A stretch of DNA of 64,000 bases from Procambarus clarkii (Eukaryota > Arthropoda > Malacostraca > Decapoda > Cambaridae). Under the pieces are notes generated by a model. It saw nothing but the letters and a program-made list of their open reading frames with translations. It was not told the DNA's origin and did no database searches. The stretch lies in assembly GCF_040958095.1 (NCBI RefSeq), contig NC_091233.1, forward strand, positions 21,459,297 to 21,523,296, read 5' to 3'. Every line of letters begins with the position of its first letter. The first letter of the stretch is position 1. Below are positions 1 through 64,000 of this stretch, in pieces. Both the position numbers and the translations under genes were made by a program.

Positions 1-551
1 GTACCCTAAAGGTTGCCATGGGTACCCTAAAGGTTGCCATGGGTACCCTAAAGGTTGCCATGGATGCCATAAGGTTCCCATGGGTGTCATAAAGGTTGCC
101 ATGGGTGCTATAATGGTTGCCATGGGTACCCTAAAGGTTGCCGGGCGCCATAAAGGTTGTCATGGGTGCCATAAAGGTTGCTATGGGTGCCATAAAGGTT
201 GCCATGGGTGCCATAACGGTTGCCATGGGTGCCATAACGGTTGCCATGGGTGCCATAATGGTTGCCATGGGTACCGTAAAGGTTGCCGGGTGCCATAAAG
301 GTTGTCATGGGTGCCATAAAGGTTGCCATGGGTGCCATAATGGTTGCCATGGGTACCCTAAAGGTTGCCGGGTGCCATAAAGGTTGCCATGGGTGCCATA
401 ACGGTTGCCATAAAGGTTGCCATGAGTGCCATAATGGTTGCCATGGGTACCCTAAAAGTTGCCGGGTGCCATAAAGGTTGCCATGGGTGCCATAAAGGTT
501 GCCATGGGTGCCATAATGGTTGCCATGGGTGCCATAATGGTTGCCATAAAC
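1..551. repeat. 21-bp minisatellite
   Basis: About 26 tandem copies of a roughly 21-bp unit built on GGTTGCCATGGGTGCCATAA, with GTACCCTAAA and GGGCGCC variants. Some copies are shortened, for example around 410-425. The array starts before the window. Cys/His/Gly-rich open frames on both strands come from the unit length being divisible by three and are not evidence of a gene. Confidence 0.9.
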
Positions 552-589
552 GAGAAAAGTGGCACGTTAGACAGTATCACCACATACAA

Positions 590-925
590 CAGTGACAGGT
601 AATGACAGTAAGGTTTCCCAACAGCAACAGACAGCAGATTCACGAACATTAACAGTATACTCACAAAAAACGGCAACAGATAGTAGACTCAACAGTGACC
701 ATATACTCACAAGTAACAGCAATAGACAGTAGACTTACAACAGTAAACAGACGTATAAACAGTAGTAGACAGCAGACTCACAAGTAACAGCAATAGACAG
801 TAGACTTACAACAGTAAACAGACGTATAAACAGTAGTAGACAGCAGACTCACAAGTAACAGCAATAGACAGTAGACTCACAACAGTAAACAGACGTGTAA
901 ACAGTAGTAGTCAGCAGACTCACAT
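590..925. repeat. 71-bp tandem repeat with degenerate left flank
   Basis: Three near-identical 71-bp units start near 699, 770 and 841, recognised by CAGCAGACTCACAAGTAACA. From about 590 to 698 the same CAGTAGAC/AACAG vocabulary continues in a more decayed form, so the array is probably older on the left. No coding potential. Confidence 0.8.
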
Positions 926-1124
926 TTAACAACAGAGTATAAGGATAAATTAATTTGAAGATCTATTGGCCTATACGAGACAGCTTCTGTTTACAATCAC
1001 TTCCTCGTATCTTCCATTTAGTTTATGTGGGCTGATGTTCGCCGTTCGATCCCCGACGATCCAAGTGGCTGAGCCCAATCTGTTCCCATCGTCTTATCCC
1101 AGCGCCTTAACCTCGTATCCCTTT

Positions 1125-1295
1125 CAAGAACGCCGCATTCCGTTCGTATGCGATACATACGGCCAACAATTGTCGTATTATAAAATGGAAGCGGCTGGCG
1201 AAATTGACGTATTGTCCCGTTTTCTGTTTGGGGTCCTCTGGTGGGTTAGGAGAGACTACTTTAACTGTTTTCTGGACGTTAAGAAACCTTAGGAG
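1125..1295 (+). mobile_element. Fam-X dispersed repeat copy
   Basis: Contains the blocks CATACGGCCAA, GGAAGCGGCTG and CGTTTTCTGTT followed by GGGTTAGGAGAGACTAC. The same blocks in the same order recur at 35531-35680, and inverted at 15655-15800 and 42395-42510. No coding capacity and no clear terminal repeats, so the class is unknown. Confidence 0.65.
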
Positions 1296-1344
1296 GTCAG
1301 TTGGTCTCTCTCACTCACACACACACACTACGCCCTTACACCTA

Positions 1345-1736
1345 GGCCAGATTCACCAAGCAGTTACGCAAGCACTTACGAACCTGAGGGCCAGATTCAC
1401 GAAGCAGTTACGCAAGCACTTACGAACCTGGGGGCCAGATTCACGAAGCAGTTACGCAAGCACTTACGAACCTGGGGGCCAGATTCACGAAGCAGTTACG
1501 CAAGCACTTACGAACGTGTACATCTTTCCTCAATCTTTGACGGCTTTGTTTACATTTATTAAATAGTTTACAAGCATGAAAACTTGCCAATCAACTGTTG
1601 TTATTGTTATAAACAGCCTCCTGGTGCTTCGGAGCTCATTAACTGTTTAATAATTGTAAACAAAGCCGCCGAAGATTGAGAAAAGATGTACAGGTTCGTA
1701 AGTGCTTGCGTAACTGCTTCGTGAATCCGGCCCCTG
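1345..1736. mobile_element. MITE-1 with four tandem copies of its left end
   Basis: Left side: four 44-bp units each with AGATTCACGAAGCAGTTACG, then GTGTACATCTTTCC and a CTTTGACGGCTTTGTTTAC segment. Right side (about 1660-1735) carries the reverse complement of these blocks: GTAAACAAAGCCGCCGAAG, GAAAAGATGTAC, then one inverted terminal unit. This is a non-autonomous element with inverted repeats of about 75 bp around a core of about 120 bp, whose left terminal unit has been multiplied. A second copy with a much longer array is at 30883-32427. Confidence 0.75.
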
Positions 1737-2109
1737 ATTAAGCCTGGTATTTACAGTTAATATACCAATATCACCAAACTTTATCTGATAAAAGCGTCTT
1801 AGTACAGGTGATTTATTAACTATCTTATCTCCTTTATTGATCCTCAAAACTGCTCAATAAAAACTGCCCTCAAGGAGGAAGGGAAGATGTTACTCCTATC
1901 TTCAAGTCAATCAATCCTAGCATCCTAATAGTCCAATACAAATTAAATAAATAAAACATTATAAACCGAAGAACTGGTAAGAATGTTTACCTGAACCTAG
2001 TCCAAGGCGAAGAGCTTTATCTCACTGAGCGAAACACTGAGAATAGTTCCAGGGTTTAGTGCTGTTCTCCAGAGATCCAGCAGGTTGTTAGTGAGGCCCT
2101 TGGGGGAGT
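1737..2109. other. No feature seen
   Basis: AT-rich unique sequence. I see no gene, no repeat array and no convincing RNA structure. Confidence 0.5.
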
Positions 2110-2630
2110 GGTGACCTCTTGGTTGCAAGGGGGCTGCAGGTGTTGGTTGCAGGGGGGGCTGCAGGTGTTGGTTGCAAGGGGGCTGCAGGTGTTGGTTGCA
2201 AGGGGGCTGCAGGTGTTGGTTGCAAGGGGGCTGCAGGTGTTGGTTGCAAGGGGGCTGGTGTTGGTTGCAAGGGGGCTGCAGGTGTTGGTTGCAAGGGGGC
2301 TGCAGATATTGGTTGCAAGGGGGCTGAAGGTGTTGGTTGCAAGGGGGCTGCAGGTGTTGGTTGCAAGGGGGCTGCAGGTGTTGGTTGCAAGGGGGCTGCA
2401 GGTGTTGGTTGCAAGGGGGCTGCAGATATTGGTTGCAAGGGGGCTGAAGGTGTTGGTTGCAAGGGGGCTGCAGGTGTTGGTTGCAAGGGGGCTGCAGGTG
2501 TTGGTTGCAAGGGGGCTGGTGTTGGTTGCAAGGGGGCTGCAGGTATTGATTGCAAGGGGGGGGGCTGCAGGTATTGATTGCAAGGGGGCTGCAGGTGTTG
2601 GTTGCAAGGGGGCTGCAGGTATTGCTAACA
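2110..2630. repeat. 24-bp minisatellite with 120-bp super-unit
   Basis: About 21 copies of a 24-bp unit (GGTTGCAAGGGGGCTGCAGG plus GTGTT), with a few 21-bp copies lacking one GCA. The variant pair CAGATATTGG then CTGAAGG occurs near 2303 and again near 2423, so part of the array was duplicated as a block of five units. All six frames are open for long stretches because 24 and 21 are multiples of three. I do not call a protein. Confidence 0.9.
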
Positions 2631-2649
2631 TGGCGTCTCCAAGATGGAA

Positions 2650-4772: not shown

Positions 4773-4959
4773 GGATTTGAACACTTTCTCAAGAGACAAG
4801 CTACACGCATACGACTGCTGCGCAACACAATAGCAACGTTGAAACTGAACACCACAATGTCCTCAGGAGACGAGAGAAAGGCAAAACTGCTGAGATTTAT
4901 CTAAAACTTTGATCAATTGACCTGATCAAAGAATTTACACACAAGCAAGAAAACAGGGG

Positions 4960-5198
4960 CCTCGTAGCCTGGTGGATAGCGCGCAGGACTCGTAATTCTG
5001 TGGCGCGGGTTCGATTCCCGCACGAGGCAGAAACAAATGGGCAAAGTTTCTTTCACCCTGAATGCCCCTGTTACCTAGCAGTAAATAGGTACCTGGGTGT
5101 TAGTCAGCTGTCAAGGGCTGCTTCCTGGGGGTGGAGGCCTGGTCGAGGACCGGGCCGCGGGGACACTAAAGCCCCGAAATCATCTCAAGATAACCTCT
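4960..5198 (+). mobile_element. SINE-1 (tRNA-Thr-derived), full length
   Basis: The 5' head folds as a tRNA: acceptor arms GCCTCGT (4960) and ACGAGGC (5022-5028) pair perfectly, the T arm is GCGGG-TTCGATT-CCCGC, and the anticodon loop CTCGTAA gives anticodon CGT (Thr). The body (GTTACCTAGCAGTAAATAGG, GGCTGCTTCCTGGGGG) and the tail from GGAGGCCTGGTCGAGGACC to CTCAAGATAACC are shared by all SINE-1 copies here. The tail matches a LINE 3' end at 50150-50215, the usual arrangement for a SINE mobilised by a partner LINE. Confidence 0.85.
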
Positions 5199-5424: not shown

Positions 5425-5541
5425 AAGACCTGGGTAAATACTGGTTTCAAAATTGTGTTGTTGGTTTAATGGAACAAATTATCAGGTAACATATCTATGT
5501 TTCAGGCGTAGGTTAGTCATAGGAATTTGGGTGATTGCAAA
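5425..5541 (+). mobile_element. LINE-D C-terminal fragment
   Basis: Translates in part as EDLGKYWFQNCVVGLMEQ, resembling the conserved end of LINE reverse-transcriptase ORFs (F.NRVVDLWN type), then reaches GGCGTAGGTTAG and ATAGGAGCTGCCTCGTATGG. The same coding block recurs at 8190-8262. The 3' part recurs unexpanded at 18870-18960, 21362-21475 and 48842-48935. It runs straight into the 24-bp array. Confidence 0.6.
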
Positions 5542-6650
5542 TAGGAGCTGCCTCGTATGGACCAATAGGAGCTGCCTCGTATGGACCAATAGGAGCTGCC
5601 TCGTATGGACCAATAGGAGCTGCCTCGTATGGACCAATAGGAGCTGCCTCGTATGGACCAATAGGAGCTGCCTCGTATGGACCAATAGGAGCTGCCTCGT
5701 ATGGACCAATAGGAGCTGCCTCGTATGGACCAATAGGAGCTGCCTCGTATGGACCAATAGGAGCTGCCTCGTATGGACCAATAGGAGCTGCCTCGTATGG
5801 ACCAATAGGAGCCGCCTCGTATGGACCAATAGGAGCTGCCTCGCTTGGACCAATAGGAGCTGCCTCGTATGGACCAATAGGAGCTGCCTCGTATGGACCA
5901 ATAGGAGCTGCCTCGTATGGACCAATAGGAGCTGCCTCGCTTGGACCAATAGGAGCTGCCTCGCTTGGACCAATAGGAGCTGCCTCGTATGGACCAATAG
6001 GAGCTGCCTCGTATGGACCAATAGGAGCTGCCTCGTATGGACCAATAGGAGCTGCCTCGTATGGACCAATAGCAGCTGCCTCGTATGGACCAATAGGAGC
6101 TGCCTCGTATGGACCAATAGGAGCTGCCTCGTATGGACCAATAGGAGCTGCCTCGTATGGACCAATAGCAGCTGCCTCGTATGGACCAATAGGAGCTGCC
6201 TCGTATGGACCAATAGCAGCTGCCTCGTATGGACCAATAGGAGCTGCCTCGTATGGACCAATAGCAGCTGCCTCGTATGGACCAATAGGAGCTGCCTCGT
6301 ATGGACCAATAGCAGCTGCCTCGTATGGACCAATAGGAGCTGCCTCGTATGGACCAATAGGAGCTGCCTCGTATGGACCAATAGGAGCTGCCTCGTATGG
6401 ACCAATAGGAGCTGCCTCGTATGGACCAATAGGAGCTGCCTCGTATGGACCAATAGGAGCTGCCTCGTATGGACCAATAGGAGCTGCCTCGTATGGACCA
6501 ATAGCAGCTGCCTCGTATGGACCAATAGGAGCTGCCTCGTATGGACCAATAGGAGCTGCCTCGTATGGACCAATAGGAGCTGCCTCGTATGGACCAATAG
6601 GAGCTGCCTCGTATGGACCAATAGGAGCTGCCTCGTATGGACCAATAGGT
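5542..6650. repeat. 24-bp array, ~46 copies, inside a LINE-D 3' end
   Basis: Exact 24-bp units (AGGAGCTGCCTCGTATGGAC plus CAAT) with few variants: CTTGGACC in three units, AGCAGCTGCC in several. No unit length changes are visible. Left flank (GGCGTAGGTTAG) and right flank (CAATAGGTCTTCT) are the two sides of the same spot in unexpanded LINE-D copies, so this is an internal expansion. Frames of about 400 codons on both strands follow from the unit size. Confidence 0.93.
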
Positions 6651-6655
6651 CTTCT

Positions 6656-7000
6656 ATATTATTATATATTCTCATGTCCTTATATATCAGTCCATCCTCC
6701 TGTTTTCCGGAAAACTGTTTTCGACTTGTGTTGCAAAGACAAACCTAACCTAACCTTCCAGGTCCTAATACACGATATCTAAGGCTTAATATAGTACATA
6801 TGTATACTATACTAGACCTAAGAATATTTCTTTTTTTTTTTAGCTTCATTTTTGTCAGGCTCTTATAAAGTATACAGTACAAAGTTCTATCTAATTGTTT
6901 AGAACGTCAAGTTCTAAGTGCTTAGAACGTCAATCTTTTTACTATAGTTACCAAAACTACTATCTAAACATGGGAATAGGTTGTAAACATTGTGTTTAAA
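6656..7000. other. LINE-D right flank and AT-rich sequence
   Basis: Right border of the array, then AT-rich sequence with a T10 run near 6830 and a short CCTAACCTAACC motif near 6743. No gene. Confidence 0.45.
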
Positions 7001-12267: not shown

Positions 12268-12330
12268 ACAGCCCCACTCCTGTTCCGGGTAAGTCCACTA
12301 CGGGCTCACCATAGCCCGTGCTACTTGGAG
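12268..12330 (+). mobile_element. HP element, single half copy
   Basis: AAGTCCACTACGGGCTCACC followed by ATAGCCCGTGCTACTTGGAG. The core ACGGGCT-CACCAT-AGCCCGT is a perfect 7-bp hairpin. It is preceded by CCCACTCCTGTTCCGGGT, the part that becomes the rest of the 56-bp unit in the arrays at 16025 and 32735. Confidence 0.75.
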
Positions 12331-12484
12331 AAGCTGAATCTATAACAACGCCTTCAATCTCTCAAATGACACAACTACCCAATGTTAGATGCAGTGAAAT
12401 GAGGTGAATCACTGCTAACAGACGTTACCTTTACATAAACATACCACTTTTAACGTTCAAATCATCTTATATGTCATTCTACCA

Positions 12485-12945: not shown

Positions 12946-13015
12946 GAGTTTACTACGGGCTCACCATAGCCCGTGCTGCTTAGAACTTTTTTGTTCCGAG
13001 TAGCGAATGTTGAAC
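12946..13015 (+). mobile_element. HP element, half copy
   Basis: TACGGGCTCACCATAGCCCG hairpin plus the second hairpin GAAC-TTTTTT-GTTC and GAGTAGCGAATGTTGAACA. It corresponds to one arm of the complete foldback at 19856-20059 and leads directly into the 32-bp array. Confidence 0.75.
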
Positions 13016-13029
13016 AGGAACAGTAGTAG

Positions 13030-13335
13030 TTTACTACGTGGGTGCTCACTAAGGGGGTGTTTCCCCTACGTGGGTGCTCACTAAGGGGGTGTGTCCCCTA
13101 CGTGGGTGCTCACTAAGGGGGTGTTTCCCCTACGTGGGTGCTCACTAAGGGGGTGTTTCCCCTACGTGGGTGCTCACTAAGGGGGGTGTGTCCCCTACAT
13201 GGGTGCTCACTAAGGGGGTGTTTCCCCTACGTGGGTGCTCACTAAGGGGGTGTTTCCCCTACGTGGGTGCTCACTAAGGGGGTGTTTCCCCTACGTGAGT
13301 GCTCACTAAGGGGGTGTGTCCCCTACGTGGGTGAA
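13030..13335. repeat. 32-bp minisatellite
   Basis: Nine to ten units of 32 bp (CTACGTGGGTGCTCACTAAG plus GGGGTGTTTCCC), with a TTT/TGT switch and one extra G. The first unit follows TAGTTTACTACG at the end of an HP element copy, so the array may have started at that border. Confidence 0.9.
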
Positions 13336-15800: not shown

Positions 15801-16024
15801 GTTTGGGCTTCCGAGTCACTGAAAATGGGAAGTTACATAACTATGAAATTTAGCATAGCTAAATTACTACGCAATTATAACTTGTGCAATTATTATACTG
15901 GAATGTTTACCTGGTTGTCTGACGACCCTTCAGTGCGGTCAGTGACTTCACACAAGTCCTGTCTGACTCCACAGGTGACATCACTCAACGTTATTGTTGT
16001 TGTTTTTGATTCAGCTACTCAGAA

Positions 16025-16998
16025 CATAAGTGCCAAGTAGCACGGGCTATGGTGAGCCCGTAACTTACCTGGCACAGGAGCGGGGCAAGTAGCACGGGCT
16101 ATGGTGAGCCCGTAGTGGACTTACCTGGCACAGGAGCAGGGCAAGTAGCCCGGGCTATGGTGAGCCCGTAGTGGACTTACCTGGCACAGGAGCGGGGCAA
16201 GTAGCACGGGCTATGGTGAGCCCCGTAGTGGACTTACCTGGCACAGGAGCGGGGCAAGTAGCACGGGCTATGGTTAGCCCGTAGTGGACTTACCTGGCAC
16301 AGGAGCGGGGCAAGTAGCACGGGCTATGGTGAGCCCGTAGTGGACTTACCTGGCACAGGAGCGGGGCAAGTAGCACGGGCTATGGTGAGCCCGTAGTGGA
16401 CTTACCTGGCACAGGAGCGGGGCAAGTAGCACGGGCTATGGTGAGCCCGTAGTGGACTTACCTGGCACAGGAGCGGGGCAAGTAGCACGGGCTATGGTGA
16501 GCCCGTAGTGGACTTACCTGGCACAGGAGCGGGGCAAGTAGCACGGGCTATGGTGAGCCCGTAGTGGACTTACCTGGCACAGGAGCGGGGCAAGTAGCAC
16601 GGGCTATGGTCCCCGTAGTGGACTTACCTGGCACAGGAGCGGGGCAAGTAGCACGGGCTATGGTGAGCCCGTAGTGGACTTACCTGGCACAGGAGTGGAG
16701 CAAGTAGCACGGGCTATGGTGAGCCCGTAGTGGACTTACCTGGCACAGGAGCGGGGCAAGTAGCACGGGCTATGGTGAGCCCGTAGTGGACTTACCTGGC
16801 ACAGGAGCGGGGCAAGTAGCACGGGCTATGGTTAGCCCGTAGTGGACTTACCTGGCACAGGAGCGGGGCAAGTAGCACGGGCTATGGTCCCCGTAGTGGA
16901 CTTACCTGGCACAGGAGCGGGGCAAGTAGCCCGGGTTATGGTGAGCCCGTAGTGGACTTACCTGGCACAGGAGCGGGGCAAGTAGCACGGGCTATGGT
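16025..16998 (-). repeat. 56-bp array of HP element units, ~17 copies
   Basis: Units of 56 bp: AGTAGCACGGGCTATGGTGA, GCCCGTAGTGGACTTACCTG, GCACAGGAGCGGGGCA. Each contains the ACGGGCT/AGCCCGT hairpin. Two units have lost GAG, giving GGTCCCCGTAG, and two have GGTTAGCCC. Opposite in orientation to the array at 32735-33245. GGTAAG on the other strand resembles a splice donor, but nothing else suggests an exon. Confidence 0.93.
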
Positions 16999-17147
16999 TA
17001 GCCTCGTCTCTGCGTGTCACTCAACGTGTTCGGGTCAGTATATAAACTCGCTTCTGCCTGGAATTTACCTGAAGGAGGTTCTGAGAGTCGTTTTACTCCA
17101 TAAACCCGGCCATAGAGCTAGTCATGACTATCCGGGAGTTTAGCTCT

Positions 17148-19855: not shown

Positions 19856-20059
19856 ACTACGGGCTCACCATAGCCCGTGCTACTTGGAACTTTGTTCCAG
19901 GTAGCGAATGTTTAACAACAACAATGTTACGAGTACGAGAAAACATGTAGCTTAGTAAACTCCATCCTGCTACGTGCCAAGAGGACAAGGTTGTTGTTGT
20001 TAAAGATTCGCTACCTGGAACAAAGTTCCAAGCAGCACGGGCTATGGTGAGCCCGTAGT
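19856..20059. mobile_element. HP foldback element, complete
   Basis: Inverted repeats of 68 bp with only two mismatches: left starts ACTACGGGCTCACCATAGCC, right ends with its complement GGCTATGGTGAGCCCGTAGT. Each arm itself holds two hairpins (ACGGGCT/AGCCCGT and GGAAC-TTT-GTTCC). The core is about 67 bp and non-coding. This is the only two-armed copy here. The others are single arms or arrays. Confidence 0.8.
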
Positions 20060-20060
20060 G

Positions 20061-28167: not shown

Positions 28168-28428
28168 CGAGTTCCTTCTTGAGGTTATCTTGAGATGATT
28201 TCGGGGCTTTTAGTGTCCCCGCGGCCCGGTCCTCGACCAGGCCTCCACCCCCAGGAAGCAGCCCGTGACAGCTGACTAACACCCAGGTACCTATTTTACT
28301 GCTAGGTAACAGGGGCATAGGGTGAAAGAAACTCTGCCCATTGTTTCTCGCCGGTGCCTGGGATCGAACCCAGGACCACAGGATCACAAGTCCCGCGTGC
28401 TGTCCGCTCGGCCGACCGACTCCCTTGT
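28168..28428 (-). mobile_element. SINE-1 copy, minus strand
   Basis: Complete: tail TTGAGGTTATCTTGAGATG at left, body, reversed box B CTGGGATCGAACCC, Thr-type loop (TCACAAG reversed), head end GGCCGACCGACTCCC at right. Confidence 0.88.
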
Positions 28429-29040: not shown

Positions 29041-30752
29041 AACCTGGTTGATACCTGGTTGATGGGGTTCTGGGAGTTCTTCTACTGCCCAAGCCCGGCC
29101 CGAGGCCAGGCTTGACTTGTGAGAGTTTGGTCCACCAGGCTGTTGCTTGGAGCGGCCCGCAGGCCCACATATACCTGGTTGATGGGGTTCTGGGAGTTCT
29201 TCTACTGCCCAAGCCCGGCCCGAGGCCAGGCTTGACTTGTGAGAGTTTGGTCCACCAGGCTGTTGCTTGGAGCGGCCCGCAGGCCCACATATACCTGGTT
29301 GATGGGGTTCTGGGAGTTCTTCTACTGCCCAAGCCCGGCCCGAGGCCAGGCTTGACTTGTGAGAGTTTGGTCCACCAGGCTGTTGCTTGGAGCGGCCCGC
29401 AGGCCCACATATACCTGGTTGATGGGGTTCTGGGAGTTCTTCTACTGCCCAAGCCCGGCCCGAGGCCAGGCTTGACTTGTGAGAGTTTGGTCCACCAGGC
29501 TGTTGCTTGGAGCGGCCCGCAGGCCCACATATACCTGGTTGATGGGGTTCTGGGAGTTCTTCTACTGCCCAAGCCCGGCCCGAGGCCAGGCTTGACTTGT
29601 GAGAGTTTGGTCCACCAGGCTGTTGCTTGGAGCGGCCCGCAGGCCCACATATACCTGGTTGATGGGGTTCTGGGAGTTCTTCTACTCCCCAAGCCCGGCC
29701 CGAGGCCAGGCTTGACTTGTGAGAGTTTGGTCCACCAGGCTGTTGCTTGGAGCGGCCCGCAGGCCCACATATACCTGGTTGATGGGGTTCTGGGAGTTCT
29801 TCTACTCCCCAAGCCCGGCCCGAGGCCAGGCTTGACTTGTGAGAGTTTGGTCCACCAGGCTGTTGCTTGGAGCGGCCCGCAGGCCCACATATACCTGGTT
29901 GATGGGGTTCTGGGAGTTCTTCTACTGCCCAAGCCCGGCCCGAGGCCAGGCTTGACTTGTGAGAGTTTGGTCCACCAGGCTGTTGCTTGGAGCGGCCCGC
30001 AGGCCCACATATACCTGGTTGATGGGGTTCTGGGAGTTCTTCTACTGCCCAAGCCCGGCCCGAGGCCAGGCTTGACTTGTGAGAGTTTGGTCCACCAGGC
30101 TGTTGCTTGGAGCGGCCCGCAGGCCCACATATACCTGGTTGATGGGGTTCTGGGAGTTCTTCTACTGCCCAAGCCCGGCCCGAGGCCAGGCTTGACTTGT
30201 GAGAGTTTGGTCCACCAGGCTGTTGCTTGGAGCGGCCCGCAGGCCCACATATACCTGGTTGATGGGGTTCTGGGAGTTCTTCTACTGCCCAAGCCCGGCC
30301 CGAGGCCAGGCTTGACTTGTGAGAGTTTGGTCCACCAGGCTGTTGCTTGGAGCGGCCCGCAGGCCCACATATACCTGGTTGATGGGGTTCTGGGAGTTCT
30401 TCTACTGCCCAAGCCCGGCCCGAGGCCAGGCTTGACTTGTGAGAGTTTGGTCCACCAGGCTGTTGCTTGGAGCGGCCCGCAGGCCCACATATACCTGGTT
30501 GATGGGGTTCTGGGAGTTCTTCTACTGCCCAAGCCCGGCCCGAGGCCAGGCTTGACTTGTGAGAGTTTGGTCCACCAGGCTGTTGCTTGGAGCGGCCCGC
30601 AGGCCCACATATACCTGGTTGATGGGGTTCTGGGAGTTCTTCTACTGCCCAAGCCCGGCCCGAGGCCAGGCTTGACTTGTGAGATTTTGGTCCACCAGGC
30701 TGTTGCTTGGAGCGGCCCGCAGGCCCACATACCCACCACAGCCCGGTTGGGT
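29041..30752 (-). mobile_element. LINE-B 3' end expanded into a 14-copy 120-bp array
   Basis: Fourteen almost identical 120-bp units (TATGTGGGCCTGCGGGCCGC on the minus strand). The right edge keeps about 20 bp of upstream LINE-B coding sequence (CAACCGGGCTGTGGTGGGTA). The left edge is the LINE end CATCAACCAGGTATCAACCA. Units at 29641 and 29761 carry GGGGAGTAG in place of GGGCAGTAG, and the one at 30601 carries a G-to-T change. In LINE-B each unit contains the last ~30 codons, the TAG stop and about 28 bp of 3' UTR. Frames of about 550 codons on both strands are by-products of the 120-bp period. Confidence 0.88.
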
Positions 30753-30882: not shown

Positions 30883-32427
30883 AGGCCAGATTCACGAAGC
30901 AGTTACGCAAGCACTTACGCACCTGGGGCCAGATTCACGAAGCAGTTACGCAAGCACTTACGCACCTGGGGCCAGATTCACGAAGCAGTTACGCAAACAC
31001 TTACGAACCTGGGGCCAGATTCACGAAGCAGTTACGAACCTGGGGCCAGGTTCACGAAGCAGTTACGCAAGTACTTACGAACCTGGGGCCAGGTTCACGA
31101 AGCAGTTACGCAAGCACTTACGAACCTGGGGCCAGATTCACGAAGCAGTTACGCAAACACTTACGAACCTGGGGCCAGATTCACGAAGCAGTTACGAACC
31201 TGGGGCCAGATTCACGAAGCAGTTACGCAAGCACTTACGAACCTGGGGCCAGGTTCGCGAAGCAGTTACGCAAGCACTTACGAACCTGGGGCCAGGTTCA
31301 CGAAGCAGTTACGCAAGCACTTACGCACCTGGGGCCAGATTCACGAAGCAGTTACGCAAGCACTTACGCACCTGGGGCCAGATTCACGAAGCAGTTACGC
31401 AAGCACTTACGAACCTGGGGCCAGATTCACGAAGCAGTTACGCACCTGGGGCCAAGTTCACGAAGCAGTTACGCAAGCACTTACGAAGCAGTTACGCAAG
31501 CACTTACGAACCTGGGGCCAGATTCACGAAGCAGTTACGCAAGCACTTACGCACCTGGGGACAGGTTCACGAAGCAGTTACGCAAGCACTTACGAACCTG
31601 GGGCCAGATTCACGAAGCAGTTACGCAAGCACTTACGAACCTAGGGCCAGATTCACGAAGCAGTTACGCAAGCACTTACGAACCTGGGGCCAGATTCACG
31701 AAGCAGTTACGCAAGCACTTACGAACCTGGGGCCAGATTCACGAAGCAGTTACGAACCTGGGGCCACATTCACGAAGCAGTTACGCAAGCACTTACGAAC
31801 CTGGGGCCAGATTCACGAAGCAGTTACGCAAACACTTACGAACCTGGGGCCAGATTCACGAAGCAGTTACGCAAGCAGTTACGAACCTGGGGCCAGGTTC
31901 ACGAAGCAGTTACGCAAACACTTACGAACCTGGGGCCAGATTCACGAAGCAGTTACGCAAGCACTTACGAACTTGGGGCCAGATTCACGAAGCAGTTACG
32001 CAAGCAGTTATGAACCTGGGGCCAGATTCACGAAGCAGTTACGCAAGCCCTTACGAACCTGGGGCCAGATTCAAGAAGCAGTTACGCAAGTACTTACGAA
32101 CCTGGGGCCAGATTCACGAAGCAGTTAAGCAAGCACTTACGAACGTGGGGCCAGATTCACGAAGCAGTTACGCAAGCACTTACGAACGTGTACATCTTTC
32201 CTCAACCTTTGACGGCTTTGGTTACATTTATTAAACAGTTTACAAGCATGAAAACTTGCCAATCAACTGTTGTTATTGTTATAAACCGCCTCCTGGTGCT
32301 TCGGAGCTCATTAACTGTTTAATAATTGTAATGATGAACAGGTTCGTAAGTGCTTGCGTAAATGCTTCGTGAATCTGGCCCCAGGTTCGTAAGTGCTTGC
32401 GTAACTGCTTCGTGAATCTGGCTCCCC
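30883..32427. mobile_element. MITE-1 with ~30-copy expansion of its left terminal repeat
   Basis: Array 30883-32185 of 43-bp units (AGATTCACGAAGCAGTTACG, CAAGCACTTACGAACCTGGG), some shortened to about 27 bp. Then GTGTACATCTTTCC, TTTGACGGCTTTGGTTAC and the same core as 1515-1660 (CATGAAAACTTGCCAATCAA). The right end has lost the CAAAGCCGCC part but keeps two inverted terminal units (AGGTTCGTAAGTGCTTGCGT). A 428-codon frame through it is not a gene. Confidence 0.85.
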
Positions 32428-32734: not shown

Positions 32735-33275
32735 GCCCCGCTCCTGGGCCAGGTAAGTCCACTACGGGCTCACCATAGCCCGTGCTACTTGCCCCGCTCC
32801 TGTGCCAGGTAAGTCCACTACGGGCTCACCATAGCCCGTGCTACTTGCCCCGCTCCTGTGCCGGGTAAGTCCACTACGGGCTCACCATAGCCCGTGCTAC
32901 TTGCCCCGCTCCTGGGCCAGGTAAGTCCACTACGGGCTCGCCATAGCCCGTGCTACTTGCCCCGCTCCTGTGCCAGGTAAGTCCACTACGGGCTCACCAT
33001 AGCCCGTGCTACTTGCCCCGCTCCTGTGCCAGGTAAGTCCAATACGGGCTCACCATAGCCCGTGCTACTTGCCCCGCTCCTGTGCTAGGTAAGTCCACTA
33101 CGGGCTCACCATAGCCCGTGCTACTTGCCCCGCTCCTGTGCCAGGTAAGTCCAATACGGGCTCACCATAGCCCGTGCTACTTGCCCCGCTCCTGTGCCAG
33201 GTAAGTCCACTACGGGCTCACCATAGTCCGTGCTACTTGCAACTTTTTGTTCCGAGTAGCTGAATCTTAAACATC
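32735..33275 (+). repeat. 56-bp HP array, 9 copies, ending in an HP arm
   Basis: Units TTGCCCCGCTCCTGTGCCAG, GTAAGTCCACTACGGGCTCA, CCATAGCCCGTGCTAC (56 bp). The last unit continues into TTGCAACTTTTTGTTCCGAG and AGCTGAATCTTAAAC, the normal end of an HP arm. So the array is an HP arm whose outer part has been multiplied, in reverse orientation to 16025-16998. Confidence 0.9.
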
Positions 33276-33283
33276 ACCACCTA

Positions 33284-36055: not shown

Positions 36056-36122
36056 ATATCTACGGGCTCACCATAGCCCGTGCTACTTGGAACTGTGTTC
36101 CAGGTAGCGAATCTTTAACAAC
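36056..36122 (+). mobile_element. HP element, half copy
   Basis: CTACGGGCTCACCATAGCCC, GTGCTACTTGGAACTGTGTT and CCAGGTAGCGAATCTTTAAC: one arm of the foldback. Confidence 0.78.
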
Positions 36123-40744: not shown

Positions 40745-40921
40745 CCCCAGGAAGCAGCCCGTGACAGCTGACTAACTCCCAGGTACCTATTTACTGCTAG
40801 GTAACAGGGGCATTCAGGGTGAAAGAAACTTTGCCCATTTGTTTCTGCCTCGTGCGGGAATCGAACCCGCGCCACAGAATTACGAATCCTGCGCGCTATC
40901 CACCAGGCTACGAGGCCCCTT
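40745..40921 (-). mobile_element. SINE-1, tail missing, minus strand
   Basis: CCAGGAAGCAGCCCGTGACA body, TATTTACTGCTAGGTAACAG, and a complete tRNA-like head (GCCTCGTGCGGGAATCGAAC ... GGCTACGAGGC) of the CGT-anticodon type seen at 4960. Another CCACCAGGCTACGAG echo follows at 40922-40936. Confidence 0.8.
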
Positions 40922-44264: not shown

Positions 44265-44530
44265 ATATCATAGTCCTGATATCCGTGTACATAGATTTGA
44301 TATCCATGTACATAGGCCTGATATCCGAGTCCATAGCCCTGATATCCGTGTCCATAGCCCTGATATCCGTGCCCATAGCCCTGATATCCGTGCCATTAGC
44401 CCTGATATCCGTGCCCATAGCCCTGATATCTGTGCCCATAGCCCTGATATCTGTGCCCATAGCCCTGATATCCGTGCCCATAGCCCTGATATCTGTGCCC
44501 ATAGACCTGATATCCGTGCCATTAGCCCAA
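44265..44530. repeat. 21-bp minisatellite (GATATCC type)
   Basis: About 12 copies of CCTGATATCCGTGCCCATAG plus C. Each has the GATATC-like palindrome. The same unit forms the interrupted array at 46410-46782. Confidence 0.9.
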
Positions 44531-46409: not shown

Positions 46410-46463
46410 TATGTAGCTCTGATATTCGTGTTCGTAGCCCTGATATCCGTGCCCATAGCCCTG
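46410..46463. repeat. 21-bp GATATCC array, left part
   Basis: Two to three units (CGTAGCCCTGATATCCGTGC) before the MITE-2 insertion. Confidence 0.8.
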
Positions 46464-46667
46464 ATATCCCTGGAAAAACAAACCGAAACTGTCTCTATTT
46501 TCCGCTTGTTACAACTTGTAATAAAGTTGTTACATCTTGGCTTAACGTGTTTATGACGTATTAGAACGTTGTTACAACTTGCTATATTGGTTGTTATAAC
46601 TGGTTAGGACGTGTTAAAACTTGTTCGAACGTTGTACCAACGTCGTAGTTTCGGTGTGTGTTTGGTG
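46464..46667. mobile_element. MITE-2 nested in the 21-bp array
   Basis: Left end CCCTGGAAAAACAAACCGAA, right end GTTTCGGTGTGTGTTTGGTG. The interior is nearly identical to 21806-22012. Array units lie on both sides, so it inserted into the minisatellite. Confidence 0.82.
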
Positions 46668-46782
46668 GGATTCGTGTTCGTAGCCCTGATATCCGTGCGC
46701 ATAGTTCTGATATCCGTGCGCATAGCCCTGATATCCGTGCCCATAGCCCTGATATCCGTGCGCATAGCCCTGATATTGAAAC
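46668..46782. repeat. 21-bp GATATCC array, right part
   Basis: Five units (CCTGATATCCGTGCGCATAG), resuming with the same TTCGTGTTCGTAGCCCTG phrase seen left of the MITE. Confidence 0.85.
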
Positions 46783-47354
46783 ATTATCCCTAAAAACTGT
46801 CCCTGACTAGCTAAAAAAAATTACCTTTCCGATTACATCAACCTAATTTTAAGTCCATAAAAATTTACTCCAGTCGTATTATTGTAAATTTATGTCCCCC
46901 ATAAATATTTACATAAAAAAAAACTCATCACGCGTACAACATTTCATGTTTAAATAATAAAAGCCTGATACCCTATTACCATATTTGCGGAGACACTCAA
47001 TTTGCGAAATATCCATGCCATAAATTCCCGACACCACCATTAGAGGAAATAAAAATATTAATGTGAACCTGAAACTCCATTAGTGCCGTCGGGGCAACGT
47101 TTTCTAACATTCAGGCAACATTAACGCTGAGGTAAGTACATTATAGTTGGCCAGTTGGCCAGGGACGGAGGGTGAATGTTGCGGTTAGGTTTTCTTTAGG
47201 TTTCCTTCAAGTGTAATGAGTTACGAAGGGGGCGGCCATGTTTTAACTTTTTTAATATAGTTAGTGTTGTTAGTAAGGTGTTCTGAGTTTTTTTTCTATG
47301 AGGAATTTGTTATCTAGACTGTTCTTAGTAGGGTAGGTGTTCTTTATATCTGTA
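46783..47354. other. No supported gene
   Basis: AT-rich unique sequence. No gene or repeat recognised. Confidence 0.4.
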
Positions 47355-47432
47355 AACAAAGCCGCTATCATTGGTGAAAAATGTAGAGGCTTCGTATGTC
47401 AATGCGAAAATGCTTCATGAATCCTGTTCTGA
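47355..47432 (-). mobile_element. Degenerate MITE-1 right end
   Basis: TGTAAACAAAGCCGC, GAAAAATGTAGAGGCTTCGT and AATGCTTCATGAATCCTGTT line up with the MITE-1 right inverted repeat at 1660-1735 with many changes. A single, old, unexpanded copy. Confidence 0.5.
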
Positions 47433-47499
47433 GAAACGACCATCTTGGGTTCGCAGTACATCCTCATAAATAAATACCTAAAGTCCACTCCATCCACCC

Positions 47500-47820
47500 G
47501 TCAAACCCTCAGCTGTTTATGAATGAAAAACGGTTTACACACGACTCACAACTGATGACGTTCGAACACTTCCGGAACAAGTGCTTCACTGACGAATTTT
47601 GTTCGAACCACAATGCTGTAAATGCTTCACTCACGTACTACAAATACAAATAATCACCAACAGAACCTAAACATCTAATCTAACCTATGCCTATATATGC
47701 ACAATATGCTAATATATTATTAATTTATATTTGAGAAAATTTCCGTTTTGAATGAACAGCATGTAAAAATTTATGACTGCGTCTGTGGGGTCGACCGCTG
47801 GGAGGAATGGACTGGAATCG
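47500..47820 (-). mobile_element. Fam-V, unexpanded copy, minus strand
   Basis: Reversed relative to 53070-53560: TTTATGAATGAAAAACGGTT, GTTCGAACACTTCCGGAAC, then CCTAAACATCTAATCTAACC in a single short block, then TTTTGAATGAACAGC and GGTCGACCGCTGGGAGGAAT. This copy shows what the element looks like without the TTAGG array. Confidence 0.65.
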
Positions 47821-52700: not shown

Positions 52701-53067
52701 TTATGAACGTTATAAGGCGAAACAGGCAGTCAAATGAGGTTCTAGGCTCATTGCCATAACCAGAGACCCAAGAGCTGCCAGTTTCCTGTTACAGCGCCTC
52801 AGTGTAGTGATCCAGAGAGGCAGCGCCACCTGTATTACCTGAATTTACCTGAGGCCTAAATCTCTAGTGGCCTCGATAGTGCCACTGAGGATGGATTATT
52901 CCTGAGGATTCTCTACTGTTTGGAATTTGAAGAAATTAAAGAAATTCATAACATTTGAGCATTCATTCTAATCAGCTAAAAAAAATATTTATGTTCAATA
53001 AAGCAAAAACAAAAAACAATGACAAAAACCATCGGTATATAGAGTCTCTGCAACTCAGGCTATGACC

Positions 53068-53174
53068 ATTCCATCCAGCGGTCGACCCCAAAGATGCATT
53101 CAACAATTTTAATATCCCGTTCATTCAAAATGTGATTTTTTGCCAATTATATATTTGCATATTTCGCACATGTG
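53068..53174 (+). mobile_element. Fam-V, left part
   Basis: ACCATTCCATCCAGCGGTCG, ACCCCAAAGATGC, CGTTCATTCAAAATG, TATTTGCATATTTCGCACAT. Matches reversed 47690-47820. Confidence 0.65.
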
Positions 53175-53410
53175 TAGGTTAGGTTAGGTTAGATTAGGTG
53201 TTTAGGTTAGGTTAGGTTAGGTTAGGTTAGATTAGGTTAGGTTAGGTTAGGTTAGATTAGGTGTTTAGGTTAGGTTAGGTTAGGTTAGGTTAGGTTAGAT
53301 TAGGTGTTTAGGTTAGGTTAGGTTAGGTTAGGTTAGGTTAGGTTAGGTTAGGTGTTTAGGTTAGGTTAGGTTAGGTTAGGTTAGGTTAGGTTAGATTAGG
53401 TGTTTAGGTT
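53175..53410 (+). repeat. (TTAGG)n-like array inside Fam-V
   Basis: About 235 bp of TTAGG repeats interrupted by ATTAGGTGTTTAGG at roughly 50-bp steps, so it is organised as a higher-order repeat and not a pure telomere tract. The unexpanded Fam-V at 47500 has one TAGGTTAGATTAGATGTTTA block at the same place. Hence an internal expansion. Confidence 0.85.
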
Positions 53411-53560
53411 CTTTTGGCGATTAGTTTTTAATATGCGTATGAAGCATTTTCACCGTTGCTGTTCGAACCACTGTTCAAAAAAACGTTCGAACATCAATTG
53501 AGAGTCGTATGTAAAGTGTTTTTTCATTTATGAATAGCGAGTTTAGCGGCTGCACGGAAC
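53411..53560 (+). mobile_element. Fam-V, right part
   Basis: TTTTGGCGATTAGTTTTTAA, GAAGCATTTTCACC, ACGTTCGAACATCAATTGAG, AGTCGTATGTAAAGTG. Matches reversed 47510-47660. Confidence 0.65.
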
Positions 53561-53738
53561 GAGCCTTTGGCCCTTGTTGATGAGGACAGGTTGTTTCATT
53601 CATAAATAGGGTGGTTTGGTGGCTGGATTAACGAGCCATTGTTTTGATGATGAGGGCTGGAAGATTTGTTGAACACGAACCATTGTCTGAAACAGTATAT
53701 ATTAGCGTCTTCGAAAGACTACTATATAATTACCAAAA

Positions 53739-59817: not shown

Positions 59818-59825
59818 CTGTATAT
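59735..59825. repeat. (TA)n microsatellite
   Basis: About 90 bp of TA. Confidence 0.95.
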
Positions 59826-59954: not shown

Positions 59955-60190
<236 letters not shown>

Positions 60191-60834: not shown

Positions 60835-61218
60835 GGTGTGTTTAAAATAAACACCTGGAAGATACTGGAGGGACAGGTCCCAAATCTGCACAGTAAAATA
60901 ACAACGTACTGGAGTGAACGACATGGAAGAAAATGCAGAATAGAACCAGTGAAGAGTAGAGGTGCCATAGGCACAATCAGAGAACACTGTATGAACATCA
61001 GAGGACCACGGTTGTTCAACGTCCTCCCAGCGAGCATCAGAAATATTACAGGAACAACCGTGGACATCTTCAAGAGGAAACTAGATTGTTTCCTTCAAGG
61101 AGTGCCGGACCAACCGGGCTGTGGTGGGTATGTGGGCCTGCGGGCCGCTCCAAGCAACAGCCTGGTGGACCAAACTCTCACAAGTCAAGCCTGGCCTCGG
61201 GCCGGGCTTGGGCAGTAG
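60835..61218 (+). pseudogene. LINE-B ORF C-terminus
   Basis: About 125 open codons. Recognisable parts: TYWSERHGRKCRIEPVKSRG, IRGPRLFNVLPASIRNITG, TTVDIFKRKLDCFLQGVPDQ, PGCGGYVGLRAAPSNSLVDQ, ending GLGQ and TAG at 61216-61218. The GP.LFN.LP.SIRN...FKRKLD.FL pattern is the usual C-terminal end of non-LTR reverse-transcriptase ORFs. The RT core is absent (5' truncation). The last 30 codons lie in the first 120-bp unit of the array that follows. Confidence 0.82.
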
Positions 61219-62110
61219 AAGAACTCCCAGAACCCCATCAACCAGGTATATGTGGGCCTGCGGGCCGCTCCAAGCAACAGCCTGGTGGACCAAACTCTCA
61301 CAAGTCAAGCCTGGCCTCGGGCCGGGCTTGGGCAGTAGAAGAACTCCCAGAACCCCATCAACCAGGTATATGTGGGCCTGCGGGCCGCTCCAAGCAACAG
61401 CCTGGTGGACCAAACTCTCACAAGTCAAGCCTGGCCTCGGGCCGGGCTTGGGCAGTAGAAGAACTCCCAGAACCCCATCAACCAGGTATATGTGGGCCTG
61501 CGGGCCGCTCCAAGCAACAGTCTGGTGGATCAAACTCTCACAAGTCAAGCCTGACCTCGGGCCGGGCTTGGGGAGTAGAAGAACTCCCAGAACCCCATCA
61601 ACCAGGTATATGTGGGCCTGCGGGCCGCTCCAAGCAACAGCCTGGTGGACCAAACTCTCACAAGTCAAGTCTGGCCTCGGGCCGGGCTTGGGGAGTAGAA
61701 GAACTCCCAGAACCCCATCAACCAGGTATATGTGGGCCTGCGGGCCGCTCCAAGCAACAGCCTGGTGGACCAAACTCTCACAAGTCAAGTCTGGCCTCGG
61801 GCCGGGCTTGGGGAGTAGAAGAACTCCCAGAACCCCATCAGCCAGGTATATGTGGGCCTGCGGGCCGCTCCAAGCAACAGCCTGGTGGACCAAACTCTCA
61901 CAAGTCAAGTCTGGCCTCGGGCCGGGCTTGGGCAGTAGAAGAACTCCCAGAACCCCATCAACCAGGTATATGTGGGCCTGCGGGCCGCTCCAAGCAACAG
62001 CCTGGTGGACCAAACTCTCACAAGTCAAGCCTGGCCTCGGGCCGGGCTTGGGCAGTAGAAGAACTCCCAGAACCCCATCAACCAGGTATCAACCAGGTAA
62101 CCAGGTATCG
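61121..62110 (+). mobile_element. LINE-B 3' end expanded into 8 x 120 bp
   Basis: Eight units of 120 bp, identical in sequence type to 29041-30752 but in plus orientation. Units 4-6 have GGGGAGTAG, the rest GGGCAGTAG; units 5-7 have CAAGTCAAGTCTGG. Ends in the short terminal repeat ATCAACCAGGTATCAACCAG, then GTAACCAGGTATC. Frames of over 300 codons on both strands are by-products. Confidence 0.9.
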
Positions 62111-62719
62111 ATTGTTATATTAAAAAAATATATTGTGTTAGATTCAATGCTGTGAGTGAGATTTTTAATTATTGATATGTTTCTCTCGTATTCTCTCTGG
62201 TCCTATGTATACCTTATATAATCGATAGGATTATACCTATCACTTGCCTGTGGTCCTATGTACTTTCCGCACACTTAAAAATACAAAACAGTAAAATAGC
62301 CTATTCCTACACACCGAAAATGTCTTATTTCGCCCCAAGAGAAGTGCAATTTTAAAAGACCCAATATCTCCCGAATATTGGGTCGAATACAATACCCGAA
62401 CACACACACACACACCCGTCCCATACCGATGGAACGGTGTGAATTCGCCTATAAAAATGGAACAGAGAGCCGAGTCGTGATGTCCCGAGATAGACTTTCC
62501 TTGGAGAATATTCTTTCGTAGAATAGTTGTAGTTTAAGGAAAGTCCACTCGAATATGAGGCTCCTCTGATGGACTCTGCGTTAGGATTTTATCTAATATT
62601 CCGTGTGCTGGATTCTAATCCAATATATATATTGCTTCCCGTACTTGGATTTTATCTAATAAATTTGGATTATATATATAAATTGCATTTCATATTACTT
62701 AGCCTCGTGACTTTGTTTG
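62111..62719. other. No supported gene
   Basis: AT-rich. TTGGATTTTATCTAATA-type phrases occur three times near 62584-62665. No gene. Confidence 0.4.
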
Positions 62720-62945
62720 ATTGGTAAATACGAGAGCCTCGCTTCTTGCAGAGTCGGGGTTCGATCCTCGATGGTTCAAGTGATTGGGCACCGTTATTTC
62801 AGTCCCTCTTCATATCCCAGCACCTCGTGTCCCAATTCCTTGTCCTCATATCCTAGCTCTTAGACTGTCGCATAACCTTTCCAATTGCTGACCATATTGG
62901 GCCAGCGCTTTCACCTAAGCCTCTGCCGACTGACAAAACCTAATA
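62720..62945 (+). mobile_element. SINE-2-like copy, old
   Basis: CGAGAGCCTCGCTTCTTGCA, GGGGTTCGATCCTCGATGG, AAGTGATTGGGCACCGTTAT, CCAGCGCTTTCACC. Head and body in SINE-2 order with an insert (CATATCCCAGCACCTCGTGT). Confidence 0.6.
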
Positions 62946-62965
62946 AACCTCGTGTTTCACCTGGG

Positions 62966-63030
62966 ATATTACGGGCTCGCCATAGCCCGTGCTACATGGA
63001 CACTTTCGTTCTGTGTAGCTCAATCTGAAA
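62966..63030 (+). mobile_element. HP element, half copy
   Basis: TTACGGGCTCGCCATAGCCC, GTGCTACATGGACACTTTCG, TGTGTAGCTCAATCTGAAAC. The second hairpin is degraded. Confidence 0.7.
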
Positions 63031-63254
63031 CAACAACCTGGGATAGCAAACTTCGACCCGGACAAGATTAATGAAGGAGGTTAATGAACAATTAACCTTT
63101 TCTGTGGACAGACATAACAAATCACTGCTTTCTTACAAGAAATAATGGGTAGAGTTTTCACCTAATTTTACCTATTTTACTTAATTATTTGCTGCCTCTG
63201 GTCCCTACGCGTAAGGGCTTTCAGTTTCTCGATTCTGAAATTTCTCTTCTCTAT

Positions 63255-63580
63255 TGCCGGAACAACCGTGGACATCTTCAAGAGAAAACTGGACGGTTTT
63301 CTAAGAGAAGTTCCGGATCAGCCGGGCTGTGGTGGGTATGTGGGCCTGCGGGCCGCTCCAAGCAACAGCCTGGTGGACTAAACTCTCACAAGTCGAGCCT
63401 GGCCTCGGGCCGGGCTTGGGGAGTAGAACAACTCCCAGAACCCCATCAACCAGGTATATGTGGGCCTGCGGGCCGCTCCAAGCAACAGCCTGGTGGACTA
63501 AACTCTCACAAGTCGAGCCTGGCCTCGGGCCGGGCTTGGGGAGTAGAACAACTCCCAGAACCCTATCAACCAGGTATAAG
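63255..63580 (+). mobile_element. LINE-B copy with 2 x 120 bp
   Basis: Begins GCCGGAACAACCGTGGACAT (TTVDIFKRKLDGFLREVPDQ), then two 120-bp units. Both share private changes (AAGTCGAGCC, GAGTAGAACAAC) not seen in the other two arrays. Ends AACCAGGTATAAG. 5'-truncated. Confidence 0.85.
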
Positions 63581-63856
63581 TCTTTCGCCTTAGTTACCCC
63601 TTGAATTTTCTCAAGATAAAACAAATTCCTATCTTAAACCGCTTACAACACTATAAACGCCGAGTCCTTCGCCATTCAGCCAGCAGGGTGCTGTCATGCC
63701 TTCCATTCATATCTTAACTAAAAAAATCTCTAATACCCTTCGTCCTCTTTACATAAAAAAAAATCAGACATAACAATGCCAAACCTTCACAAATCTTAAG
63801 AAAACTGCACCATTTCCACGTAACAAATATACTGCATAGACTCCCAACCAGCAAAA

Positions 63857-63930
63857 GTCCACTACGGGCTCACCATAGCCCGTGCTACTTGGAACTTTTT
63901 GTTTCAAGTAGCGAATCTTAAACAACAACC
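63857..63930 (+). mobile_element. HP element, half copy
   Basis: GTCCACTACGGGCTCACCAT, AGCCCGTGCTACTTGGAACT, TTTTGTTTCAAGTAGCGAAT, CTTAAACAACAAC. Both hairpins present. Confidence 0.78.
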
Positions 63931-64000
63931 ACCCAACCAGCAACAAGGAAATGTATATGTTTATCTCTCAGAATGTTCGGTAATATGTTTATTGTTTGTG

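Follow-up and report, generated by a model that had tools for sequence, protein, structure and literature searches.

Mobile elements that bear tandem arrays are a known kind of behaviour. The SVA/LAVA elements of apes are composite retrotransposons with a variable number tandem repeat (VNTR), mobilised by non-LTR machinery and varying in unit number, and the part of that study cited here describes new cell-culture insertions without a change in unit number (PMC4432496). Moreover, regions near the 3′ end of LINEs have given rise to tandem repeats in CR1, L1 and HeT-A/TART, according to the portion drawn on here of a review (PMC9659126). In the present large genome, such behaviour is found in several families side by side.

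The window, i.e., the whole 64-kb stretch of Procambarus clarkii DNA (NC_091233.1) that was analysed, was searched for arrays with Tandem Repeats Finder, and 26 arrays of at least 200 bp were found to occupy 33% of its length. Eight of the 26 belong to five named families (LINE-D, LINE-B, MITE-1, HP and Fam-V), and for the other 18 no element continuing on both flanks was seen in a comparison with a small sequence set. An Rfam scan of the window returned tRNA only. The genome is array-rich: tandem repeats with a period of at least 7 make up 34% of the window (LINE-B excluded) and 16–20% of the other fetched loci. A sequence-only reading of this DNA had stated that five families are found both with and without one fixed segment expanded in tandem at a defined place; for unrelated families this was confirmed, the expansion sharing its base position across insertions (with arrays at a fixed place in LINE-B, HP and MITE-1), but several of the single-unit copies it had named proved wrong. 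Its proposal that the flanks continue the parent element held for LINE-B, HP, MITE-1 and Fam-V (where both sides align), whereas for LINE-D an upstream body or a 3′ tail was visible at some of the nine fetched loci, but not at all of them. The arrays are real, and most of those whose setting could be checked occupy a fixed position within a dispersed element. Across the genome, the exact unit–unit junction was encountered 4,380 times for LINE-B, 7,676 times for LINE-D, 19,626 times for HP and 6,685 times for MITE-1, and among the copies listed those with a single unit outnumber those with several.

The LINE-B copies of the window are the following:

29051..30730, minus strand: 3′-terminal LINE-B array of 14 × 120 bp, with the fixed 3′ end at 29041-29050 and ~20 bp of body at 30731-30749.
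61130..62089, plus strand: 3′-terminal LINE-B array of 8 units, with ~284 bp of body upstream (60846-61129).
63338..63577, plus strand: two-unit LINE-B copy, with ~86 bp of body upstream.

These three copies had been cited for the occurrence of LINE-B with and without expansion; they hold 14, 8 and 2 units, and it is elsewhere in the genome that single-unit copies exist. A LINE-B body fragment (locus L035) matches the reverse transcriptase PF00078 (E 1.8e-27). While body length varies among copies, i.e., variable 5′ truncation, the 3′ end is fixed, with 28/28 copies starting at unit base 1–3 (17 of them after AACCTGGTT(G)). On the truncated side, 12 of 45 array copies end inside a unit, although later deletion could likewise leave a partial unit. 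The motif GGTAT is common to the unit ends and to the border between body and unit. Target-site duplications did not rise above the null in the 12 LINE-B arrays tested, so it is the end structure that suggests target-primed reverse transcription (TPRT) for this family. Some non-LTR retrotransposon clades make no target-site duplication.

LINE-D is represented by one large array with its flanks:

5540..6649, plus strand: LINE-D array, 24-bp unit × 46.2, GGACC type (Tandem Repeats Finder).
~5498-5539 and ~6650-6683, plus strand: flanks of this array, a body remnant upstream and a tail remnant, respectively.

Supposed single units at 18896, 21400 and 48850 turned out to be 30–117 bp matches at 67–97% identity, and at the nine fetched loci the upstream body or 3′ tail was recognised by eye in some cases only. 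The unit edges carry AATAGG as a short direct repeat. With places taken from the first 100 matches listed, the derived base (GGACC) was present in 10 of 13 listed array loci (7/10 places when neighbours up to 10 kb apart are counted as one), and in 0/100 of the unit-tail matches listed on C1.

The SINE-like HP element is represented by the following stretches:

15995..17003, minus strand: HP array of 17 full 56-bp units (Tandem Repeats Finder 16034-17003), beginning inside a unit; the flanks carry an 11-bp duplication, ACGTTGAGTGA, separated from the array by 15 bp on the 5′ side.
32735..33281, plus strand: HP array of 9 units (Tandem Repeats Finder 32735-33240), complete at its 5′ end and with a 3′ hairpin tail; the flanks carry the candidate 7-bp duplication CACCTAT.
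12271..12341, plus strand: one-unit HP copy with full 5′ end and shortened 3′ hairpin.
12947..13021, plus strand: 5′-truncated single HP copy; a 32-bp array begins 13 bp beyond it.
19856..19923, plus strand: 5′-truncated single HP copy; a duplication was looked for and not found.
19992..20060, minus strand: 5′-truncated single HP copy, inverted relative to 19856..19923.
36060..36122, plus strand: 5′-truncated single HP copy with duplication TATACCTGCT.
62970..63037, plus strand: 5′-truncated single HP copy with duplication ACCTGGGATA.
63855..63933, plus strand: 5′-truncated single HP copy with duplication CCCAACCAGCAA.

The earlier "single arms" of HP were thus in part misread: the one at 12268 is a one-unit copy with full 5′ end, but in those at 36056, 62966 and 63857 the 5′ part of the unit is missing. 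Flank words of at least 7 bp, i.e., candidate target-site duplications, were present in 11/11 tested HP arrays, and words of at least 8 bp in 10/11, against 15/306 and 7/306 mismatched pairings, respectively; some of these words are as far as 28 bp away from the end of the element. The 11 arrays comprise two from the window and nine of the 11 fetched loci, out of 47 array places among the matches listed, with L089 left out because its 3′ flank is cut off, and L092 because it represents the insertion also seen as L093. Shared flank words also accompany 4 of 7 single copies. These candidate target-site duplications outside the array support insertion of HP by TPRT.

Unit number in HP arrays ranges from 2 to 17, and these arrays combine 52- and 56-bp units in differing order. 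A distinct GCA-type first unit is found in seven arrays at six loci and in 0/30 of their later units (the 30-bp GCA-type first unit of L092 was missed by the search pattern, and L092 was counted among the other arrays). Since L092 and L093 are ~95% identical over 551 bp, they are copies of one insertion, and their unit numbers differ: change of HP unit number in place, at the DNA level, is real.

For MITE-1, three stretches are relevant:

30884..32423, plus strand: MITE-1 copy consisting of 31 units in the left inverted repeat (43 bp for the most part, 31 bp in some), a centre, and 2 units in the right inverted repeat.
1345..1732, plus strand: MITE-1 copy, 4 units on the left and 1 on the right.
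47343..47424, plus strand: diverged MITE-1 end fragment, 82 bp, 76% identity.

The left array of the first copy spans 30884-32187 (43 bp, ~31 units; Tandem Repeats Finder). Of the two copies proposed as its unexpanded form, the one at 1345 is already an array and the one at 47355 is the end fragment listed above. Five of the eight copies examined have several units in both arms, and exact junctions on both strands were present at 5/21 loci listed on C4. No consistent target-site duplication was apparent by eye in the eight copies examined. MITE-1 is foldback-like, its inverted repeats being built of tandem subrepeats.

Finally, Fam-V does occur with and without an array, as had been proposed, on the evidence of one pair of copies within the window that align on both sides:

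53066..53586, plus strand: Fam-V copy with a TTAGG-like array at 53171-53410 (Tandem Repeats Finder).
47461..47810, minus strand: Fam-V copy without array, in which the seed TAGGTTAGATTAGATGTTTAGGTT is retained.

How the arrays came to be dispersed was addressed via unit variants in LINE-B. Within the 39 arrays analysed, C37G, T63C, C29G and G8C segregate inside 12, 9, 9 and 8 arrays, respectively, whereas in 1,000 simulations no allele exceeded 7 arrays. Overall allele sharing amounted to 85/156, against a simulated mean of 62 and with the simulated maximum only just reached. This test kept 39/45 arrays and 163/175 units, after removal of units that had more than 8 mismatches, of arrays in which fewer than 2 units then remained, and of duplicate flanks. 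Because 28 LINE-B loci had been retrieved with the C37G-rich array of the window as query, C37G is over-sampled; G8C is absent from that query. Neither C37G nor G8C appeared in 27 LINE-B copies with fewer than 1.5 units, but T63C was present in 8/27 and C29G in 2/24 single copies, which runs counter to inheritance. The 27 low-unit copies stem mostly from C1 and include at least five duplicate pairs as well as L059, which is really a diverged array of ~1.7 units, and the 30 single-unit loci include local and segmental duplicates. No position-specific alleles were found, and adjacent units are slightly more alike than chance (p ~0.01), as local duplication would give.

Shared unit variants and truncation inside units together indicate that arrays predate insertion and are inherited. 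In LINE-D, HP and LINE-B the arrays thus seem to be carried along by the elements and not to arise anew at each landing site. We therefore favour, with a probability of roughly 0.72, mobile elements that harbour an internal VNTR, the multi-unit form of which spread by transposition as its own lineage and subsequently drifted in unit number. In each family, a source copy would have gained one or a few duplicates of one short fixed segment, i.e., the 3′-terminal segment in LINE-B and LINE-D, nearly the whole body in HP, and the outer part of the inverted repeats in MITE-1, and direct repeats at the segment edges (AATAGG in LINE-D, GGTAT in LINE-B) may have aided this first duplication. The multi-unit form would then have transposed as a separate lineage, in HP by TPRT, as supported by the flank duplications, in the LINEs presumably by TPRT as well, as 5′ truncation and the fixed 3′ end suggest, and in MITE-1 probably by some DNA transposase. 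Afterwards the unit number of each copy would drift, plausibly by slippage or unequal exchange, post-insertion change having been seen at the one duplicated HP locus; a hypothetical reshuffling of units during reverse transcription may add to this.

An unlikely alternative would have the array made or reshuffled at each insertion, by slippage or template switching of reverse transcriptase during TPRT, possibly between RNAs. LINE-B alleles that are common to loci yet hold no fixed position in the array, the varied order of 52- and 56-bp HP units, and, at the sequence level, the GGTAT shared by LINE-B unit ends and the body–unit border would all fit. However, one RNA pool should also supply C37G and G8C to the low-unit LINE-B copies that lack them, the structure of MITE-1 is not that of a retroelement, and in the cited part of the SVA/LAVA work, insertions newly made in cell culture showed no altered unit number (PMC4432496). 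A narrower version, in which the LINE reverse transcriptase jumps between 3′-terminal segments of the same or different RNAs, so that LINE-B and HP arrays would be mosaics composed per insertion from a shared pool, seems rather improbable.

Equally doubtful is independent amplification at each site after insertion, by slippage, unequal exchange or break-induced repair. Both the genome and the window are array-rich, adjacent LINE-B units are slightly more similar, and direct repeats border the LINE-B and LINE-D units. Moreover, the difference in units between L092 and L093 implies that local amplification acts on array length, though it probably does not give rise to the array at each site. Against it stand unit variants common to array loci, some of which (LINE-D GGACC, LINE-B C37G and G8C) went unseen in the single copies examined, arrays truncated inside a unit (the 12/45 in LINE-B and the HP array at 16025), and an identical junction across thousands of copies. 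The many side-by-side local amplifications that the sequence-only reading had put forward are thus mostly unsupported, since multi-unit loci of LINE-D, HP and LINE-B have unit variants in common and several insertions break off within a unit.

Chromosomal domains prone to tandem amplification, creating arrays of any family, are distinctly unlikely as the source. Based on the first 100 matches listed and on partly interpolated contig extents (which also holds for the C4 junction places of MITE-1 above), 9/9 MITE-1 array loci on C1–C3 have a LINE-B array less than 0.5 Mb away (shift mean 0.77, p 0.0005), as do 6/69 MITE-1 variant loci across the genome up to C79 (mean 0.90, p 0.0025); on C4, 15/16 LINE-B loci are near MITE-1 arrays (p 0.02), and C1 has hardly any LINE-B or MITE-1 arrays despite 100 listed copies of each. 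However, MITE-1 copies chosen by point variant, with arrays ignored, lie within 0.5 Mb in 11/18 cases and share the same domains on C2–C6, and because this control matches the domain sharing, regional amplification was dropped as the main reading (the control list ends at C39, and the copies in it may be members of the lineage that bears arrays). Furthermore, 0/26 MITE-1 array variants on C7–C39 are within 1 Mb of LINE-B arrays found with the window query, MITE-1 arrays predicted at 14–17 Mb of C6 were not seen (one is at 33.93 Mb), and most LINE-D arrays and C1 HP arrays listed fall outside the LINE-B/MITE-1 domains. The domains shared by these two families include C2 47–51 Mb, C3 11–20 Mb and C4 2.7–8 Mb.

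That unrelated elements invaded older satellite arrays is hardly credible: the 18/26 large window arrays without element link in the small comparison set and the LINE-D arrays without recognisable element flanks would fit, but arrays occupy a fixed place within LINE-B, HP and MITE-1 copies, and the HP flank duplications outside the arrays contradict for that family an origin that the sequence-only reading had itself raised. Rather than forming the long element-independent arrays of a classical satellite, the fetched LINE-B, HP and MITE-1 arrays (2–31 units) are contained in dispersed elements.

At least four families of three kinds (two LINEs, one SINE-like and one foldback-like element) in one genome thus carry the same sort of internal array, and their thousands of exact junctions per family provide natural replicates for telling unit-number change in DNA from change during reverse transcription. 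Caution is due, as such arrays may get tallied as independent satellites.

The closest parallels are the VNTRs of SVA and the Galileo and Tetris elements. HP would be a VNTR-bearing non-LTR retroelement that, as far as the cited part of the SVA/LAVA study goes, resembles SVA/LAVA in its internal tandem array, particular end units and DNA-level unit change, but differs in its size (~100 bp plus extra units), in a unit that makes up most of the element and in its host animal, and no Alu or SINE-R part was noticed in HP (PMC4432496). The likeness is one of kind only. MITE-1 shares tandem units in inverted repeats with Galileo (PMC3573991) and Tetris (PMC4079207), and with Galileo F the differing unit numbers of the two arms of one copy (PMC3573991), but in the sections cited the repeats measure ~210 bp in Galileo F (PMC3573991) and ~220 bp in Tetris (PMC4079207), whereas MITE-1 is far smaller with its 43-bp outer unit. 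LINE-B and LINE-D are comparable to CR1, L1 and HeT-A/TART in that a region near the 3′ end turned tandem, although the portion of the review cited lists mainly satellites, while the short arrays described here stay inside dispersed copies (PMC9659126). Arrays dispersed inside mobile elements are likewise described, in the part cited, for the Helitron-borne satellites of oysters; those elements are rolling-circle, whereas the present ones are LINE, SINE-like and foldback-like (PMC11136912).

The window spans C84:21459297-21523296 in a genome of 4.03 Gb and 2,308 contigs. Its element-associated arrays are best explained as internal and inherited: the lineages that bear them would have carried them along as they spread, with array length drifting. 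This account is based on variant tests in three families (i.e., LINE-B, LINE-D, and HP) and was extended to MITE-1 on structure only. All arrays named in the sequence-only reading were recovered by Tandem Repeats Finder. That reading had also listed MITE-1 and LINE-B among the families occurring both with and without an expansion inside the window; however, the MITE-1 copy at 1345, taken as unexpanded, is already an array, and 3/3 window copies of LINE-B have at least two units. For Fam-V (one pair only), the flanks of the copies at 53175 and 47680 align both upstream and downstream of the array position, where a short seed is retained in the copy that lacks the expansion.

Within the small set of sequences compared, no element link was found for 18 of the 26 large window arrays. 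Minisatellite sequence built on one 21-bp motif (TAGCCCTGATATCCGTGCC type) recurs at 44269-44528, 46413-46469, and 46681-46776, three sites that all lie within 2.5 kb. Furthermore, ARAGORN yielded four tRNA-Thr-like predictions, two of them with a tRNA match in Rfam:
4959-5029, tRNA-Thr-like, Rfam tRNA match
28349-28420, tRNA-Thr-like
28841-28914, tRNA-Thr-like
40846-40916, tRNA-Thr-like, Rfam tRNA match
All four fall within a repeat of ~220 bp (28700-28916 and ten matching places), which is probably a tRNA-derived SINE.

The LINE-B set of 28 copies, including the window's own array (L001), revealed a fixed start at unit base 1-3 in 28/28 copies, immediately preceded by AACCTGGTT(G) in 17, and followed mostly by whole 120-bp units and then, where present, by the body, cut at varying points. 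Read on the opposite strand, LINE-B is a LINE whose 3′ end is fixed and whose 5′ end is truncated, and a body fragment encodes reverse transcriptase. Genome-wide, the body-unit junction had 15,940 exact matches and the unit-unit junction 4,380; the first 30 body-unit matches listed, all on C1, each contained one unit (one copy being interrupted by N). Of 45 array copies, 12 end in a partial unit, an outcome not readily expected from a single-unit insertion. No target-site duplication above chance was found at the 12 arrays where it was sought. Moreover, four unit alleles segregate within the 39 arrays scored (C37G in 12, T63C in 9, C29G in 9, and G8C in 8), each exceeding the simulated maximum of 7 arrays, with no tie found to position within the array. 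C37G and G8C were absent from the 27 copies with <1.5 units, among which T63C and C29G do occur. Separately, array-variant junctions cluster at C6:15290550-15296370 with spacings of 120-122 bp or multiples, amounting to ~48 units if contiguous, far above the other LINE-B arrays seen.

Exact LINE-D junctions numbered 27,545 (unit-tail) and 7,676 (unit-unit) genome-wide. Among the matches listed, all 100 tails (on C1) carried GGGCC and 81 of 100 unit-unit junctions carried GGACC; by eye, 0/100 of these tails had a listed unit-unit junction immediately upstream. GGACC was present at 10 of 13 array loci (7 of 10 places when loci within 10 kb were merged). Of the nine array loci fetched, some but not all showed recognisable LINE-D body or tail sequence. 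In the 3′ flank of one locus (L108), a diverged LINE-B-like unit adjoins the LINE-D array, hinting that the LINE families are related.

The short HP element always starts at the same 5′ position and has a hairpin at its 3′ end together with a tail rich in AAC. Its units measure 52 or 56 bp (with a few other lengths) in mixed order. A GCA-type first unit was found in seven arrays at six loci, as opposed to 0/30 later units. Exact junctions amounted to 19,626 (unit-unit) and 18,762 (unit-tail) genome-wide, and for 12 of the first 100 tails listed, all on C1, exact junctions showed two or more units. A flank word of at least 7 bp was common to both sides of 11/11 arrays and 4/7 single copies, versus 15/306 mismatched pairings; the array at 16025 starts within a unit and is flanked by an 11-bp duplication. 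Two loci (L092 and L093) share ~95% identity over 551 bp, indicating copies of one HP insertion, yet their unit numbers differ, which shows DNA-level change. A 32-bp array (13034-13333) starts 13 bp beyond the HP copy at 12947-13021.

MITE-1 was sampled through eight copies (six fetched via the array junction and two from the window). Its inverted repeats are made of 43-44-bp units, although the long array also includes 31-bp steps and a single step of 66 bp. Two arms were visible in six copies, five of which had arrays in both. Genome-wide, 6,685 unit-unit and 11,301 inner junctions matched exactly, and none of the 100 inner-junction copies among the matches listed, all on C1, overlapped that contig's two MITE-1 array loci.

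On C1-C3, 9/9 MITE-1 arrays were located within 0.5 Mb of LINE-B arrays (shift p 0.0005); the figure was 6/69 MITE-1 variant loci genome-wide to C79 (shift mean 0.90, p 0.0025), and on C4 MITE-1 arrays were near 15/16 LINE-B loci (p 0.02). Nevertheless, 11/18 control MITE-1 copies on C2-C6, picked by point variant, were likewise within 0.5 Mb of LINE-B arrays, and on C7-C39 0/26 MITE-1 array variants were within 1 Mb of arrays of the 28-copy set, so that shared insertion compartments suffice to explain this proximity. On C1-C6, C11, and C12, the copies of LINE-B, HP, and MITE-1 are distributed unevenly, in Mb-sized compartments, and C1 carries LINE-B and MITE-1 copies but almost no arrays of either.

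Minisatellites are reported as abundant in crayfish genomes (PMC13130569), which would apply here only if the host is a decapod crayfish, as such sequences may suggest. Known parallels are the VNTRs of SVA and LAVA (PMC4432496), Galileo (PMC3573991), Tetris (PMC4079207), and the Helitron-borne repeats of oysters (PMC11136912), with further cases collected in a review (PMC9659126).
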